From an uncultured Pseudomonadota bacterium (lineage in GTDB: Bacteria; Pseudomonadota; Alphaproteobacteria; RUG11792), in contig CACZTP010000016.1 in assembly GCA_902784055.1 (NCBI GenBank), positions 1-32,156 of the forward strand: a stretch of 32,156 nt of DNA, given 5' to 3'. The position numbers and the translations under genes were made by a program. Under the pieces are notes generated by a model. That model was not told the origin of the DNA and ran no database searches. It saw nothing but the letters and a program-made list of their open reading frames with translations. How positions within the stretch are numbered: position 1 is the first letter of the stretch; every line of letters starts with the position of its first letter. Below are positions 4,143-23,162 of this stretch, in pieces.

Positions 4143-5987
4143 TTAATTAATGTGGGATGTTTCTTTTCTTTGTTCTAATATCCTTTTTGTTTCTAATAGG
4201 ACATCTTTGGCAATTGGGGCTGCGACTGATGCTCCGCCCCCGCCATGTTCAATTACAACGCATACAGCGTATCTTGGATAATCTGCGGGAGCAAAACCGA
4301 TAAATAATGCGTGATCTTTTTCTTTGTATAAATCTGATTCGGTTTTACCTAACGCACGTTGCGATGTACTTATTCTTCTTACTTGAGAGCTTCCGGTTTT
4401 TCCAGCAAATTCAAATTTTTCATCATCAATTGCAGATTTACGAGCTGTTCCGATCGGAGAATTAACAACGTCGTACATGCCATCAACTATTACCTGAATA
4501 TGATCATCATTGTATTTTAATGATTGTATAGTTCTATCTAATTGAAATTTTTTATACACATAAGGGGTTATAGGACGAAGTCTATTTGCAAACATTGCAA
4601 CCATCTTAACGAGTTGTAAGGGAGTTGTAAGCACGTATCCCTGTCCGATTGACATGTTGCAACTATCACCCGCTGTCCACTTTTGCTTTTTCTTTTCATA
4701 TTTCCATGACTTTGTGGGAATAAGTCCTGAGCATTCATTTGGTATATCGATGCCCGTGGGTGTTCCCAAACCAAAATCATTTGCAACATTCGCTACCATT
4801 TCTGGACTTAAACGACTAGAAAGATTGTAAAAAAAACAATCACATGACTGTTCTAGTGCTTCTTGTACAGTAAGAGAACCGTGTCCTCCATATTTCCATT
4901 TCCAACAATAAAACTTATGTTTTCCGAGGGAGCAGTACCCTGAACAATTGAATCGTGTGTTTTTTGTTATTACGCCGTAATGCAGTCCGGCAAGTGCTGT
5001 TATAATTTTAAAAGTTGAACCTGGAGCATACAGCCCTGAAATAGCTTTATTTATCAATGGTTTTGCAGGATTTGAATAAACTTCTTGAAGTAGTTTGTGT
5101 GAAATTTGACTTGAAAACACATTAATGTCATAACCCGGGTAAGAAACTAAGGCTAATATAGCTCCCGTTTCAATATCCATTACAATACATGAGCCACTTG
5201 TTTCTTTTGACAATATTCTATACACTGCATTTTGTAATTCAGTATTTATTGTTAATTCAACTTTTTCCCCAGGTTCACTTGACTTTTCATTTATCGTTCT
5301 TATAATCTGTCGTCTTGAATTTACTTCTAATTTTTTTATTCCAACCTTTCCAAAAAGTAGTTCTTCATAACTTCTTTCAATTCCGCATTTTCCCGTTTTT
5401 GCCATAGGCAATTGTAAAGAGAAATTATTTGAACTTTTTATATCATTAACACTTGGCGACGCGGTATAACCTAACACGTGCGACATCTCAAACGGATTAA
5501 TATAGTGCCTTAATATAGTTCGTTCGATTATTATGTTCTGACAAAAATTTGATAAAACACAATATCGCGCTAAAGTGTTCCAATCAGCATTTTCTTTTAA
5601 TACGACATAACGATTTTTGTTATTAATCTTTTTTGGTACACAATTTAATATTGCTTCAGCCTTCGTATCAAGTGGGAAAAGTTTTAATTTATGTTTTAGA
5701 TCAAATAATTTTTCATATTTCATCCCGTACATATCTAATACGACTGAATATGAATATCTATTTGTTGCTATTACTTTGTCTTCAGCATCTCTTATTTCAC
5801 CCCGTAGAGGTAAAACCCTTGAAACAACTATTCTGTTTTTATCAGATAGTTTTTTATATTTCTCAGATTGATAAATTTGTAGATAAACGAGCCGTGCTAC
5901 TAACACAATTATTAGTATAAAGTTCAGTAAAATAAAAAAACGTACGCGTTTTAAAAATAGCGACTTCTCATCATTTTTACTGAACAT
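4143..5987 (-). CDS. mrdA: Penicillin-binding protein 2, peptidoglycan transpeptidase
   Basis: A 614-residue class B penicillin-binding protein that cross-links peptidoglycan in the elongation complex with RodA and MreB. It has a short cytoplasmic N-terminus, one membrane anchor (about residues 16-38), a dimerisation/pedestal region containing RGEIRDAEDKVIATN (62-76), and the transpeptidase domain. The catalytic motifs are SxxK at Ser324-Thr-Phe-Lys327, SxD at Ser381-Cys-Asp383 and KTG at 530-532. Length fits MrdA (about 630 residues) better than FtsI because of the PBP2-type N-terminal region. No rodA or mreC lies beside it. It starts 6 bp after the stop of the Asn-rich thioredoxin-fold gene on the same strand, so the two are probably co-transcribed. 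It converges with the antiporter gene, 30 bp away. Confidence 0.93.
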   Translation of the reverse strand: MFSKNDEKSLFLKRVRFFILLNFILIIVLVARLVYLQIYQSEKYKKLSDKNRIVVSRVLPLRGEIRDAEDKVIATNRYSYSVVLDMYGMKYEKLFDLKHKLKLFPLDTKAEAILNCVPKKINNKNRYVVLKENADWNTLARYCVLSNFCQNIIIERTILRHYINPFEMSHVLGYTASPSVNDIKSSNNFSLQLPMAKTGKCGIERSYEELLFGKVGIKKLEVNSRRQIIRTINEKSSEPGEKVELTINTELQNAVYRILSKETSGSCIVMDIETGAILALVSYPGYDINVFSSQISHKLLQEVYSNPAKPLINKAISGLYAPGSTFKIITALAGLHYGVITKNTRFNCSGYCSLGKHKFYCWKWKYGGHGSLTVQEALEQSCDCFFYNLSSRLSPEMVANVANDFGLGTPTGIDIPNECSGLIPTKSWKYEKKKQKWTAGDSCNMSIGQGYVLTTPLQLVKMVAMFANRLRPITPYVYKKFQLDRTIQSLKYNDDHIQVIVDGMYDVVNSPIGTARKSAIDDEKFEFAGKTGSSQVRRISTSQRALGKTESDLYKEKDHALFIGFAPADYPRYAVCVVIEHGGGGASVAAPIAKDVLLETKRILEQRKETSHIN

Positions 5988-5993
5988 GTTTTA

Positions 5994-7526
5994 TTAATGT
6001 TGCCTCTTACAACACCGCCTAACTTTACAGTTTTTCTTTTTAGACTTATTCGAAGTTCCACAGCGTTTAGATAAAGCTCGTTTTAACTTACATCCGCATG
6101 TAGTACAAGTGTCTGGTTCATGTGGTGCTGTATAATTTCCTTCAATGACATACTCTGCAGGTTTAGTTACAGGCGCTGAGCATTGCGGGCATACTGGACA
6201 AGCAGGGCAAGGAGGACACGAGGTTATTGTTGCATAAGTAACAGGAGGTGCCCACTTTTTTACGGCGCAGGCTAAGTTACAATCATTGTTCAACATTTCT
6301 GTGAAAACATTTGTCCTATCGGCGTTAATCTGTTTGTTATGTACAACCTTATTGTAACTACGAGTTTTGGAAGTTTTGTAATTATTATTGGAGTAAAACG
6401 GTTGAGGGGAGGTATTAGATTGATTTTGTCTTTCTTGGTTTCCAAACGAATTGAATACTTGTAAGAACTGTCCTATTGCATCTTGATTAGTAAATTCAAC
6501 TCGCTCTATAGAGTTATCAGCCCCTCCACGAAAGCATTCTTTACCATTGCTTACAGCCATCATTGTTGGCAAACTGTCAACAGCGTTGCCGTTTAAACTA
6601 GCCTTATCTCCCAATAATACAAGTTCTGAATTGTTTCCTACCTGAATGCTAAAGCTGTTTAGCTTCTGTAAGTGATTATTAAAGTCTGCATCAGTTGGTT
6701 CACGCCAGTTTTGCAATCCGTCAATTGACGGAACACCAATAAATATTATCTTGATGCCAGCCTGCGTTAGTGCAGACATGTTTTTTGAAAAGTTGCCTAA
6801 AAATCTAGCACAGTGAGGACACCAATCACCAAAAAATATTATTATTGCTCTTTGTAAATCATTTGAACCTAAAGTTGTTTTATATAAACGACCGTTGCCG
6901 TCTTTTCTATAAACAGTGGCAGTAAACTGCCTTCCTTTCAATGCGTAGTTTTCAGTAAAGACATTAGGTTGACCGTTATTAAAATTACTATTTTGGTTGT
7001 TACCTACATTCTGGTTATTAGAATTGTTTCCCGTATTGTTGTATCCGTTATTGTAATTGCCATTATTATTGTATCCATTATTGTTTTGATTATAGCCGTT
7101 CTGTCCGGGATTGTTTGTTGAATAAGCTCCGTTATTGCTATTGTTTAAAGTGATTGGTGTGTTGTACCCTCCAGCTCCGTTATTATTTGAATAACCATTT
7201 TGATTGTTTTGATTATTATAATTATTATTTCCGTTGTTCCCTTGATAATTACCATTCTGGGAATTACCGTTCTGGAAGTTCCCATTTTGAAAATTGTTAC
7301 CAGGTTGATTGGATCCGTTTTGACTGTTGTTAGAATTTTGCCCACCTGGATTGTTGTTAAAATTACCACTCGCTTGAGCCGAATACACTGGATTCATTCC
7401 GTATGATTGTGTCGCTAACATTGCGATGGCTGTCATTAAAATAGCTAATCTGCTTGTAATCTCTCTTTGGAATACAACATATCTAACAGTTTTAATTTTT
7501 AACATTTCAAGATACAGACAATTCAC
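5994..7526 (-). CDS. Periplasmic thioredoxin-fold protein with Asn-rich linker and Cys-rich tail
   Basis: Three distinct parts follow a signal-like hydrophobic segment (about residues 25-43). Residues 54-187 are low complexity, nearly half Asn with Gly, Gln and Tyr, including FQNGN-type repeats. Residues about 190-360 form a thioredoxin fold: FFGDWCPHC has redox Cys236 and Cys239 with a DsbA-like CPHC pair, and SLPTMMAV supplies the cis-Pro (Pro320). The C-terminus holds CPPCPACPVCPQC (437-449), TCTTCGC and a basic Cys-rich end. I infer an envelope thiol oxidoreductase or isomerase, or a metal-binding structural protein; no named family is recognised. GTG at 7526 is preferred because AGGG lies 8 nt upstream; GTG 7535 and ATG 7505 are alternatives. 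It lies immediately upstream of mrdA, which suggests an envelope role. Confidence 0.7.
   Translation of the reverse strand: MNCLYLEMLKIKTVRYVVFQREITSRLAILMTAIAMLATQSYGMNPVYSAQASGNFNNNPGGQNSNNSQNGSNQPGNNFQNGNFQNGNSQNGNYQGNNGNNNYNNQNNQNGYSNNNGAGGYNTPITLNNSNNGAYSTNNPGQNGYNQNNNGYNNNGNYNNGYNNTGNNSNNQNVGNNQNSNFNNGQPNVFTENYALKGRQFTATVYRKDGNGRLYKTTLGSNDLQRAIIIFFGDWCPHCARFLGNFSKNMSALTQAGIKIIFIGVPSIDGLQNWREPTDADFNNHLQKLNSFSIQVGNNSELVLLGDKASLNGNAVDSLPTMMAVSNGKECFRGGADNSIERVEFTNQDAIGQFLQVFNSFGNQERQNQSNTSPQPFYSNNNYKTSKTRSYNKVVHNKQINADRTNVFTEMLNNDCNLACAVKKWAPPVTYATITSCPPCPACPVCPQCSAPVTKPAEYVIEGNYTAPHEPDTCTTCGCKLKRALSKRCGTSNKSKKKNCKVRRCCKRQH
6966..7367 (-). repeat. Asn/Gly/Gln low-complexity coding repeat
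   Basis: These bases encode about 134 residues made of short imperfect units such as FQNGN, GYNNNGN and NNGYNN. On the plus strand the DNA appears as runs of ttattg/ttgttg-type triplets. Such tracts expand and contract by slippage, so length may vary between strains. It is a linker inside the thioredoxin-fold gene, not a separate element. Confidence 0.8.
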
Positions 7527-7588: not shown

Positions 7589-7665
7589 TGGTGCGCCCGG
7601 AAGGATTTGAACCCTCAACCTCCAGATCCGTAGTCTGACGCTCTATCCAATTGCGCTACGGGCAC
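7589..7665 (-). tRNA. tRNA-Arg (anticodon ACG)
   Basis: The minus strand folds into a full cloverleaf. The acceptor GTGCCCG pairs with CGGGCGC (one T-G pair). The D arm is present with one G-A mismatch. The anticodon stem TCAGA/TCTGG flanks the loop CTACGGA with anticodon ACG, and the T arm is GAGGG-TTCAAAT-CCTTC. The 3' CCA is encoded (TGG at 7589-7591 on the plus strand). A34 would be deaminated to inosine by TadA to read CGN codons. It lies 47 bp downstream of secA on the same strand and probably shares its transcript. Confidence 0.96.
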
Positions 7666-13035: not shown

Positions 13036-13371
13036 CTACTTGTTCATAATAATTGAAATTAAAATAACGGATAAGCATATACAAACGGCTAACAATGTTA
13101 ATTTCATTACTAAACTAAATATAGCCCAAATTAATAACATTTCGATAAGTATATACGGTAGCAAAAAGATAGACATACTATTTTTATATTTAAATTTTTC
13201 CGTTTTGCCTATAAAACCACTTTCATAACCGTTAATATTAGATTTGTCCTTGTTTTGTTTCCCAATTAGGCTAGGTATTTTTGAAAAAACTACCGCACAA
13301 ATAGATATAACTAAACAAACTAAAAAGACTGTAACAAAGTCATTGACAGCTTCAGAGTGGGCTGACTCCAT
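13036..13371 (-). CDS. nuoA: NuoA-like small membrane protein (NADH-quinone oxidoreductase subunit A candidate)
   Basis: A 111-residue protein with three membrane helices (about residues 10-30, 65-86, 88-109). The loop after helix 1 contains NGYESGFIGKTEKFKYK, resembling the NuoA signature (YECGF, or FESGI in E. coli). Helix 2, FLLPYILIEMLLIWAIF, aligns with the NuoA FYLVA...FDxE helix and keeps the conserved Glu, while the nearby Asp is Leu. NuoA is a membrane subunit of complex I next to NuoH and NuoJ. Normally it opens the nuo operon; here it stands alone, starting 9 bp after the ftsZ stop on the same strand. The assignment rests on these short motifs and topology, so an unrelated small membrane protein remains possible. 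Confidence 0.55.
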   Translation of the reverse strand: MESAHSEAVNDFVTVFLVCLVISICAVVFSKIPSLIGKQNKDKSNINGYESGFIGKTEKFKYKNSMSIFLLPYILIEMLLIWAIFSLVMKLTLLAVCICLSVILISIIMNK

Positions 13372-16724: not shown

Positions 16725-17381
16725 ATGATTATTCTTTTAGCTGTTTTAGGGATAGGGCTTGTAGCAACACCTATTGTTTTAGAGAACATGGATCCTGCTC
16801 CTGTAGTCTCTAATATTGTAAATAAACCTACTGTAAATTACTCTCCTGCTCCTGTTGTAAAAGAGGATATAAAGGTAATTAATGAGAGGGTCTGAAAGCT
16901 ACTTGTAGAGTGGACGGAGTCCTTTTTAACAGACAGAATCGAAATGAGCAAAATATACAAAACGTTGCAAAACGAAGACCTTAGGAAAAATTTGTATATG
17001 TCCAAAATTAAAGAGTTTGCTTTAAAAGAAGAAGTACTTATAAATAAAATAAAATCTATAACAAAAGAACATAGCAAACGTTTTGCTGTCATGATAAAAA
17101 ATTTAGAAGGGGAATGCGACGCATATAAAAATAAAGTTGATGCGGTATATGATATGTGGTGTTGTAGAAAAAAAGCTGATTTGCCTTTTCTCTTCAGAGA
17201 GAACTATGATAGCTCTAAACACCGTGTTATTTATAGAGTTTCTTCTGTTTTGAATCTACCTGGTTTATTTGGTAAAGAACATTGGAGTGTATTCGACAAT
17301 GGATTTGTTTGTTTCAGAGAAACTAACTTTGTACCCATCAAAGCTTTACCAGACTCCGAAGTATCAGACTTCAAAGAGTAA
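16725..17381 (+). pseudogene. Membrane-anchored coiled-coil protein of unknown function, split by one in-frame TGA
   Basis: An ATG at 16725 opens a 56-residue frame that stops at TGA 16893-16895. The same frame then runs on without a stop, through an ATG at 16944, to TAA at 17379-17381, for 218 codon positions in all. The N-terminus is a hydrophobic anchor or signal (MIILLAVLGIGLVATPIV), followed by a Pro/Val segment with two PAPVV motifs. A charged helical, probably coiled-coil region continues across the TGA (INERV, stop, KLLVEWTESF) to about residue 125, and a globular C-terminus contains LNLPGLFGKEHWSVFDNG. No family is recognised. TGA is a genuine stop elsewhere here (lon, tatD, permease), so a nonsense mutation (from CGA or TGG) or readthrough is likelier than recoding. 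The 145-residue downstream part alone could still be translated. Confidence 0.6.
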
Positions 17382-18585
17382 CTAGCTTACAATGGTCACA
17401 GGAATCCAGTCGGTTTCTCCGTTTGTAAGAGATATTGTTGTAGATATGTTGAATTTGAAACTAATCCAGTCTCCATCAATTTGGATTACAAAAATTTTGT
17501 TTTTATAATCCCAGTCTATCAATTTAAATAATGGATCTTGTTTATAAGAAAGGATTTTATTGCCGCTGAGTATATCTGCTAATTTGTCTGATAACGCTCC
17601 GACAGTGTATTTACGACTAGCGACCACTTCTCTAAAAATAGGATCAACATAGAGTGTTGCCTTCGCTTTAGAGAGGTAACCAACTAAGTAAAATCCGTTA
17701 CTAGTAGGTGTTGTTACATATTTTTCTTTTTTGAAGAAATCCAGATTCTGAGTATAGACTATTTTTCGTTTCTGGTTATCATAAAGCATAACTACATTAT
17801 GCGAATTGTTTATTTCTTGGTTCGTTCTTAACTTATGTTTGATAACTTGCCACTGCCAGTTTAATGGACAATTAGTAAGCGTTCGAGGGAAAAACTGGAC
17901 AAAATCTGTCGTTGTCGCGTTAGCACCAAGTGCACCAAATACAGGATTTATAGGTTTCAACTTTATGGCGATGATATCCTTTTTAGTATTTTTTTGGATA
18001 ATAATAAGAGGTTCTTTTTTAATAGTTAGAGTAGCTTCTCTTCGCCTTTCTATAACAGGTAAAGTTACTCCTACCTCTATTTTGTCTTTTATTCCTTTTA
18101 ACCTTTCTATTTGGGTATATTTTATCTGAGGTCAAACACGTTGTTATTATCGGGATTATCATACTTGTTCTTTAAAGTACTTATTTGTGATAATAATTCC
18201 TCTCTTTCAGCATTAAATTCATCCTCTCTTATTTTAGACGTTTTATAATCATCAATTAGTTGGTTATATTGTTCTTCTATATCGTCTAATAAAAATACAT
18301 TATCGGATAAATTCTCTGCAGACGCCGTAGCTAAATATACAGATTTGAACATCGACGAAATTAAGAAAAGATTCAATTTTTCCTGCTATTGCAAACTCTT
18401 CCAAAATGTAGTGGTGTATTGTGGTAAAACATCCATCCATCTTAGACATAAAACCTAAATCTTCGCAAATTATCGCATATATGCTTGCTTTTAAAACGCG
18501 CGCAGTAGTTTATTGCAAAATGGAACAGTTCGAAGAAAGCCGAAATCGCTAAAAACAATAATACGAATTTAGTGTAATGCATCAT
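17382..18585 (-). pseudogene. Unknown secreted or anchored coiled-coil protein, apparently broken by three frameshifts
   Basis: Four consecutive open segments on the minus strand read like one protein of about 400 residues. The first starts at ATG 18585 with a hydrophobic leader (MMHYTKFVLLFLAISAFFEL). The second, through about 18450-18360, includes KMDGCFTTIHHYILEEF. The third (18376-18122) is a coiled coil, IEEQYNQLIDDYKTSK. The last (18131-17382, 249 residues) has a globular end including YVDPIFREVVASRKYTVG and WDYKNKIFVIQIDGDWISF. The frame slips one base near 18500, one near 18370 and two near 18130, at or beside A/T homopolymers. The last segment has no ATG, only a TTG at 17960. No family is recognised. 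It abuts the plus-strand broken gene exactly. Separate small genes are possible but less likely. Confidence 0.5.
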
Positions 18586-22254: not shown

Positions 22255-22313
22255 GCTTGGTAAGCCCCAACCTTGTTATTATTAAACTCAGGTATGGGGA
22301 AAAGGAACGTATT

Positions 22314-23162
22314 TTGATTAAATTAAGTAGACGAAATTTTAAGAGTGTATGTAGAGATGCTTGTCGTATCCGGCGAAAAATGTCGACAAAATCTTTTTTT
22401 AACAAAATAAAGGGCGTTACGCAAGAACTAAACGAGAGAGTAAGGAGATTAGATTTTTGTAGTGATAAATTGGGAGCAATAGCAGACGCTACTACAGCAT
22501 TCGTGGCATTGATAATATCAACAATAATGAGGATGGGGTGCGGAATATTTGAGTATTCCCGTGTATCATTGCTATTAAACGGACTGATCTACTCACTAAT
22601 AACAGGAGCAGTGTTTATTAAAACAGGAGTTATAACAAGAGATCGGCAAAATTTTTCAAATACAACTATAAAAAAAATATTTATAAGCGTTGCTATTACA
22701 AATGCAATAGCATACCCGCTTATAATGTTCGCCGATAGACAAAAATGCTTATCGTCGTCGATAATGTTTATCGACTTTTTTGTATTTGTTGTATTACTGT
22801 TGTCACAATACATTTTTTCAAGGAAAACAACTATACGCAGAGCCTCGGATATTCTTGTAGGAAGTCCCAAACACATATCGGATCTAGTATCAAAAAACAG
22901 ATTTGGAACATCAAGATTTAACCCGATAGGTGTTATATCAACGGAAGAAACTAATTACAGTAACAGCTTTCAAATTCAATCATTAGGTTTATCATCTGAT
23001 ATATCGTCAATACTTCATTCTCTTGATGCTAAAGGGATAGTACCAAAGCGTTTTGTAATAGTAGATCCTATAACATCCGATGAAATTACAATATTAAAAG
23101 AATATGCAAATAAAAATGGAATTATACTATTGCAGGTTTTTAGTTCAGAGTTTGAAAATTGA
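22314..23162 (+). CDS. CapD/WbpM-like membrane protein lacking the catalytic domain
   Basis: A 282-residue protein from the TTG at 22314, which has AAAGGA 7 nt upstream. The first ATG is at 22380, and the frame is open back to 22257. A basic N-terminus precedes four membrane helices (about residues 55-73, 84-104, 121-139 and 149-168). A soluble region from about 180 then begins RRASDILVGSPKHISDLV, includes RFNPIGVIS, and ends with PKRFVIVDPITSDEI before a final strand. This order resembles the membrane and CoA-binding-like N-terminal half of CapD/WbpM nucleotide-sugar dehydratases, whose extended SDR catalytic half (Ser-Met-Lys or Tyr-x-x-x-Lys) is absent here. The glycine-rich turn is also weak. 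It may be a degraded or repurposed remnant. It sits between rpoD and lon. Confidence 0.5.
   Translation: MIKLSRRNFKSVCRDACRIRRKMSTKSFFNKIKGVTQELNERVRRLDFCSDKLGAIADATTAFVALIISTIMRMGCGIFEYSRVSLLLNGLIYSLITGAVFIKTGVITRDRQNFSNTTIKKIFISVAITNAIAYPLIMFADRQKCLSSSIMFIDFFVFVVLLLSQYIFSRKTTIRRASDILVGSPKHISDLVSKNRFGTSRFNPIGVISTEETNYSNSFQIQSLGLSSDISSILHSLDAKGIVPKRFVIVDPITSDEITILKEYANKNGIILLQVFSSEFEN

Follow-up and report, generated by a model that had tools for sequence, protein, structure and literature searches.

Which task is performed by an exported, cysteine-rich thioredoxin-fold protein whose gene directly precedes that of penicillin-binding protein 2 (PBP2) is the question raised by this locus; the window, i.e. 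the whole stretch of DNA analysed, comprises 32,156 nucleotides. The gene (TRX; 5994..7505, minus strand; ORF call and homologues) likely starts with the ATG at 7505, giving a protein of 503 aa, while the alternative upstream GTG starts at 7526/7535 would lengthen the product by 7-10 aa. The first-pass annotation had reported a 6-bp spacing to PBP2: the TRX stop codon is indeed separated by 6 nt from the ATG (5987) of mrdA (4143..5987, minus strand), and the neighbour is a true PBP2 (TIGR03423, 585 bits; cut-off 455). A tRNA-Arg(acg) gene (7589..7665, minus strand) is located just upstream of TRX; promoter and terminator scans gave no signal above shuffles. Elsewhere in the window, the ORFs 22257-23162, 13036-13371, 16944-17381 and 17385-17960 were without convincing Pfam match.

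The TRX protein (all of the following coordinates on the minus strand) begins with a signal peptide region (residues 1-36, 7398..7505; recognised in the sequence, with a predicted helix at 14-30 and A-x-A^QQ-type sites in relatives) and the mature N-terminal motif PVYSAQAS (7368..7391; family form PVYxAxAG, alignment A1), a motif type found in TRX only among 955 ORFs examined. An Asn-rich, predicted disordered linker (residues 48-181, 6963..7364; pLDDT <50 nearly throughout) leads to the thioredoxin domain (residues 182-360, 6426..6962) with the CPHC redox centre (C229-C232, 6810..6821) and the cis-Pro loop SLPT (P313, 6564..6575); a second linker connects this domain with the predicted helix RTNVFTEMLN (residues 395-406, 6288..6323), referred to as aTxxLN, and a Cys-rich tail follows (residues 409-499, 6009..6281; 14 Cys) that includes the CPPCPACPVCPQC array (6180..6218). 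The tract initially described as nearly half Asn over 134 residues contains 62 Asn (46%), and the redox centre with its cis-Pro loop as well as the array followed by more Cys were likewise read correctly. Cysteines occupy positions 229, 232, 324, 409, 413, 430, 433, 436, 439, 442, 467, 470, 472, 482, 493, 498 and 499; they form six CxxC pairs versus 0.54 expected from same-protein shuffles (0/10,000 reached six). The architecture is not represented in Pfam, NCBIfam or the PDB, in line with the earlier statement that no named family has it, and no description of it was found in the literature searched.

By its CxxC and the opposed cis-Pro (C229, C232 and P313 are invariant) TRX belongs to the thioredoxin superfamily, in agreement with the AF2 model (pLDDT 87 for the thioredoxin domain) and Foldseek. 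The best PDB matches to the domain were ResA, DsbE-like, Etrx and TlpA proteins (ResA-type E 6e-8; TM for the ResA group about 0.5 of the query and 0.65-0.72 of the target), and the profile search against ResA (1st9; E 2e-7) was in accord with the fold. In the profile search proposed at the outset, the only matches were weak ones of the central domain to the thioredoxin superfamily: the broad superfamily model AhpC-TSA (PF00578) was barely over its cut-off (26.1 bits versus 26), the StoA model (NF041202; 16.5 bits) far under its curated cut-off of 210, and the dsbE equivalog gave no above-cut-off match. The StoA profile matched 18 of the 30 TRX members known (E up to 0.01); the DSBA domain (PF01323) had no match in the window TRX and matched two of the 30 members at E <0.01. 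ResA, StoA and CcmG carry a buried conserved Glu at +6 relative to the first Cys (PMC3961690), a position occupied in the TRX sequences by Phe (27/30) or Leu (3/30) and never by Glu. Judged by its sequence, TRX works on a known principle yet is not a clean member of the ResA/StoA/CcmG group.

Within a single little-known, uncultured family of small-genome, Holosporales-like alphaproteobacteria living in rumen and termite guts (according to record titles; termite origin read from isolate names), 30 of the 35 genomes encode a homologue of TRX; the family profile retrieved none from 286 alphaproteobacterial genomes outside it. Both CxxC cysteines, P259, L304, the cis-Pro, T402, L405 and N406 are invariant across the 30 sequences (alignment A1), and the dipeptide of CPHC is found in 25 of them; as aligned, aTxxLN is the most conserved non-catalytic feature of the protein; it had gone unnoticed in the first-pass annotation, as had the candidate client site in PBP2. 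The fusion for which relatives had been suggested as a check recurs only in part: the same architecture is encoded by two same-genus genomes (17 of 17 Cys retained; motif identity 89%; array conserved as CPPCPxCPVCPxC in three species), whereas the Asn tract and the Cys array are absent or different in other genera. The Asn-rich linker is confined to the window's genus and one sister genus, being elsewhere Pro/Gln/Gly-rich or short, and the number of tail cysteines ranges from 0 to 19, with a C-terminal CxC ending many of the relatives. Both elements, varying or vanishing across the family, were thus discarded as defining features. Within the genus, tail identity is only 59% and synonymous sites are saturated or near-saturated, and 17/17 Cys are kept; hence the Cys tail is genuine and under selection. 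Chance or an assembly artefact was dismissed on the same ground and by the conservation of the protein in 30 genomes. The Cys-rich tail is nevertheless a local addition within the genus. Since nine relatives are devoid of any Cys after aTxxLN, the thioredoxin centre cannot depend on the array as its substrate or resolving relay, two roles considered in the first-pass annotation.

The linkage to mrdA, also put forward there for comparison among relatives, is kept in 19/30 genomes, where the two genes are read in the same direction and TRX stands immediately before PBP2 (intergenic distance −4 to 120 nt); in 11/30 TRX does not adjoin PBP2. In the PBP2 tree, linked genomes occur in the g1+g7 lineage and in most other lineages; because g1+g7 represents the deepest TRX-bearing branch, the linkage looks ancestral with several losses. 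No TRX relative was detected near PBP2 in 30 control alphaproteobacterial loci.

The PBP2 of the window contains a putative Zn/thiol site, C348-x12-C361-x7-H369-x12-C382 (4842..4946, minus strand; pattern match), comparable to the Zn-binding C-x12-C-x6-H-x12-C of Clostridioides difficile SpoVD (PMC9974482) and the C-x14-C-x5-H-x12-C of C. difficile PBP3 (PMC9974482, PMC9334274). Zn is held at the corresponding place in Acinetobacter baumannii PBP2 and the C. difficile class B PBPs, and loss of the Zn site abolished the rod shape of A. baumannii (PMC9974482). Every alphaproteobacterial PBP2 whose sequence was inspected in this region, whether of the family or of the class controls (30/30), had a C-x12-C-x5-7-H-x12-C site; the family and control proteins conform to the class B PBP ligand rule (C/D, C/D, H, C at known spacing). 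The control PBP2s (L124-L153) showed C-x12-C-x5-H-x12-C in 30/30 cases. By its ligand pattern, the three-Cys alphaproteobacterial site goes beyond the motif D/D/H/C published for beta/gamma-proteobacterial PBP2 (PMC9974482). A PBP2 site special to the family was abandoned as the reason for TRX, the site being class-wide, and so was a correlation between TRX and the site based on G015: this genome is without TRX and has the site, the earlier pattern having been too strict. In four genomes of the family, 84-96% complete, the PBP2 site is present and TRX is missing.

Concerning possible redox partners, the 0.75-Mb genome carrying the window keeps DsbB and a 607-aa DsbD that ends in a thioredoxin domain; TRX itself is its only, weak, Redoxin-family match, and DsbA (PF01323) was not detected in this genome or its genus. 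DsbD was not found in the TRX-bearing genomes G007, G008, G010 and G023, which weakens it as an obligatory partner; an electron route from DsbD to TRX is plausible. In two loci with TRX unlinked to PBP2, an exported DsbA/Thioredoxin_4-like protein is encoded near TRX (L045:349-1242, L047:2029-2940); the L045 copy, on which the Pfam run was performed, matched PF13462.

On these grounds we tentatively favor, as a possibility that stays short of probable, a DsbD-fed StoA-like thiol oxidoreductase that keeps the Zn/thiol site of PBP2, and perhaps further thiols of the envelope, functional. The export signal, the fold, the invariant active site, the gene linkage, the PBP2 site and the presence of DsbD and DsbB are observed; we infer the reductase direction, PBP2 as client, Zn in the window PBP2 and the roles of motif and tail. 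TRX would serve in the periplasm as a thiol-disulfide oxidoreductase with a ResA/TlpA/StoA-class fold; flexible linkers would flank the catalytic domain, and the C-terminal aTxxLN helix would dock it. The membrane reductase DsbD would supply the electrons that maintain CPHC in its reduced state, which in turn would keep client thiols free of wrong disulfides. The first client would be the C-x12-C-x7-H-x12-C site beside the PBP2 active site, which could thus hold Zn while the transpeptidase stays active, in analogy to the action of StoA on SpoVD in Bacillus; the Cys-rich tail in the window's genus may provide an extra thiol or metal site. In favor of this reading are the fold and profile nearest to ResA with StoA also matched, the PBP2 linkage in 19/30 genomes with its ancestral look, the site in all PBP2s examined together with the published cases of SpoVD, PBP3 and A. 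baumannii PBP2, the retention of DsbD and DsbB in so small a genome, and the weak but sole Redoxin-family match of TRX there. The strongest points against it are that the PBP2 site occurs class-wide without TRX and that four family genomes do without the protein; further objections are the 11 unlinked TRX genes, the four TRX genomes without detected DsbD, the DsbA dipeptide in CPHC, and the replacement of the ResA/StoA/CcmG Glu by Phe or Leu.

Two of these objections, CPHC and the unlinked genes, are among the arguments for a general periplasmic disulfide oxidase or isomerase, which would replace or complement DsbA as the partner of DsbB, or act in a DsbC-like manner, on many envelope proteins; linkage to PBP2 would then reflect only co-expression with growth. 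CPHC in 25/30 sequences, the retained DsbB, the failure to detect a PF01323 DsbA in the own genome or genus and the 11 genomes with unlinked TRX are consistent with this role, which we nevertheless regard as rather unlikely: TRX is nearer to ResA/TlpA than to DsbA in fold and profile, relatives possess a separate DsbA-like protein beside TRX (the PF13462 protein of L045:349-1242), and the PBP2 linkage looks ancestral. An adaptor or metal handler, in which aTxxLN would address a shared receptor and the CxC/Cys-rich tail would bind Zn or Cu for clients such as PBP2 in a thioredoxin-Sco-like fashion, could account for the strong selection on the tail cysteines within the genus, the C-terminal CxC of many relatives and the occurrence of aTxxLN in another exported protein; it is improbable in view of the nine relatives without Cys after the motif and of a TRX sequence without known metallochaperone signature. 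A CcmG/ResA-type reductant for cytochrome c maturation is very improbable, for although ResA is the closest fold and TRX the sole Redoxin-type match in the genome, the conserved Glu is absent (PMC3961690), no dsbE equivalog match exceeded the cut-off, and the genomic link is with PBP2.

The docking step of the favored oxidoreductase reading draws on the recurrence of aTxxLN outside TRX. Weak profile hits pointed to a small exported protein, present in the window's genome as G000:C10 = L088:1808-2188 (minus strand), with signal peptide, acidic linker, Lys-rich stretch and RTNEFTEDLNND, versus RTNVFTEMLNND in TRX; it has relatives across the family, most of them with aTxxLN. These small Lys-rich proteins (L088:1808-2188, L165-L180, L089, L213-L215) are ~100-210 aa long and have a MNKIS-type signal peptide. 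A 19-column motif profile built from TRX and the small protein matched, at E <0.02 in the 35 genomes, only these two and one PPIase-like protein of G019, most matches being so by construction of the profile from both proteins; the G019 protein and the copies of G026, G016 (E 0.023) and G011 (E 0.11) were not among its input sequences. The G019 protein (G019:C55, L212:738-2747) is exported, with Rotamase_2 just below cut-off and a Lys/Glu-rich linker bearing EASDATESLNKK directly after the signal anchor; the G019 genome is without TRX. The residue preceding the motif Thr is identical in TRX and the small protein in 9/14 genomes (shuffle p 0.0005, relatedness ignored), which suggests a common partner. 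In TRX, aTxxLN is probably a short docking-type motif not described before. Doubtful, taken as one joint claim, is the wider proposal that Lys-rich stretch and aTxxLN constitute a new family docking module by which several exported folding factors (the thiol oxidoreductase, the PPIase-like protein and the small Lys-rich protein) would be directed to one envelope receptor, forming a folding and repair centre that serves PBP2.

The probable task of TRX is to safeguard sulfur chemistry in cell-wall proteins. If the favored reading is right, symbiont-like Gram-negative bacteria would possess a gene pair dedicated to thiol control of an elongation PBP, such control of a PBP having so far been known for the spore-specific PBP in Bacillus. 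The class-wide three-Cys/His site of PBP2 raises the testable question of how, in the oxidising periplasm, it remains reduced and loaded with Zn, a question that is general because every alphaproteobacterial PBP2 examined has the site; aTxxLN, common to several exported proteins, is a separate and directly testable lead.

In comparison with known systems, TRX shares with ResA, TlpA and CcmG (DsbE) its best fold and profile match, and with ResA, StoA and CcmG a Leu before the cis-Pro and a strand beta1 free of acidic residues; it differs from the ResA/TlpA/CcmG proteins by the missing conserved Glu, an extra segment after the VPS loop, the appended exported modules and a position in the window that is not near cytochrome genes. 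With DsbA it has the CPHC dipeptide in common, whereas fold and profile are nearer to ResA and no above-cut-off DSBA match was obtained. The Zn-binding class B PBPs (C. difficile SpoVD/PBP3, A. baumannii PBP2) agree with the window PBP2 in the ligand spacing C-x12-C-x5-7-H-x12-C; Zn has been seen in the former and is predicted for the latter from its sequence pattern. Bacillus subtilis StoA is likewise an extracytoplasmic thioredoxin fold, and its known client is a class B PBP bearing a site of CCHC type, like that of the PBP2 adjoining TRX: StoA interacts with the B. subtilis SpoVD motif, which was at that time taken for a disulfide (PMC9334274). Unlike StoA, TRX has no Glu at +6 and combines CPHC with long linkers, the aTxxLN helix and a Cys tail, and it is a Gram-negative protein whose gene adjoins that of PBP2 rather than a sporulation gene.
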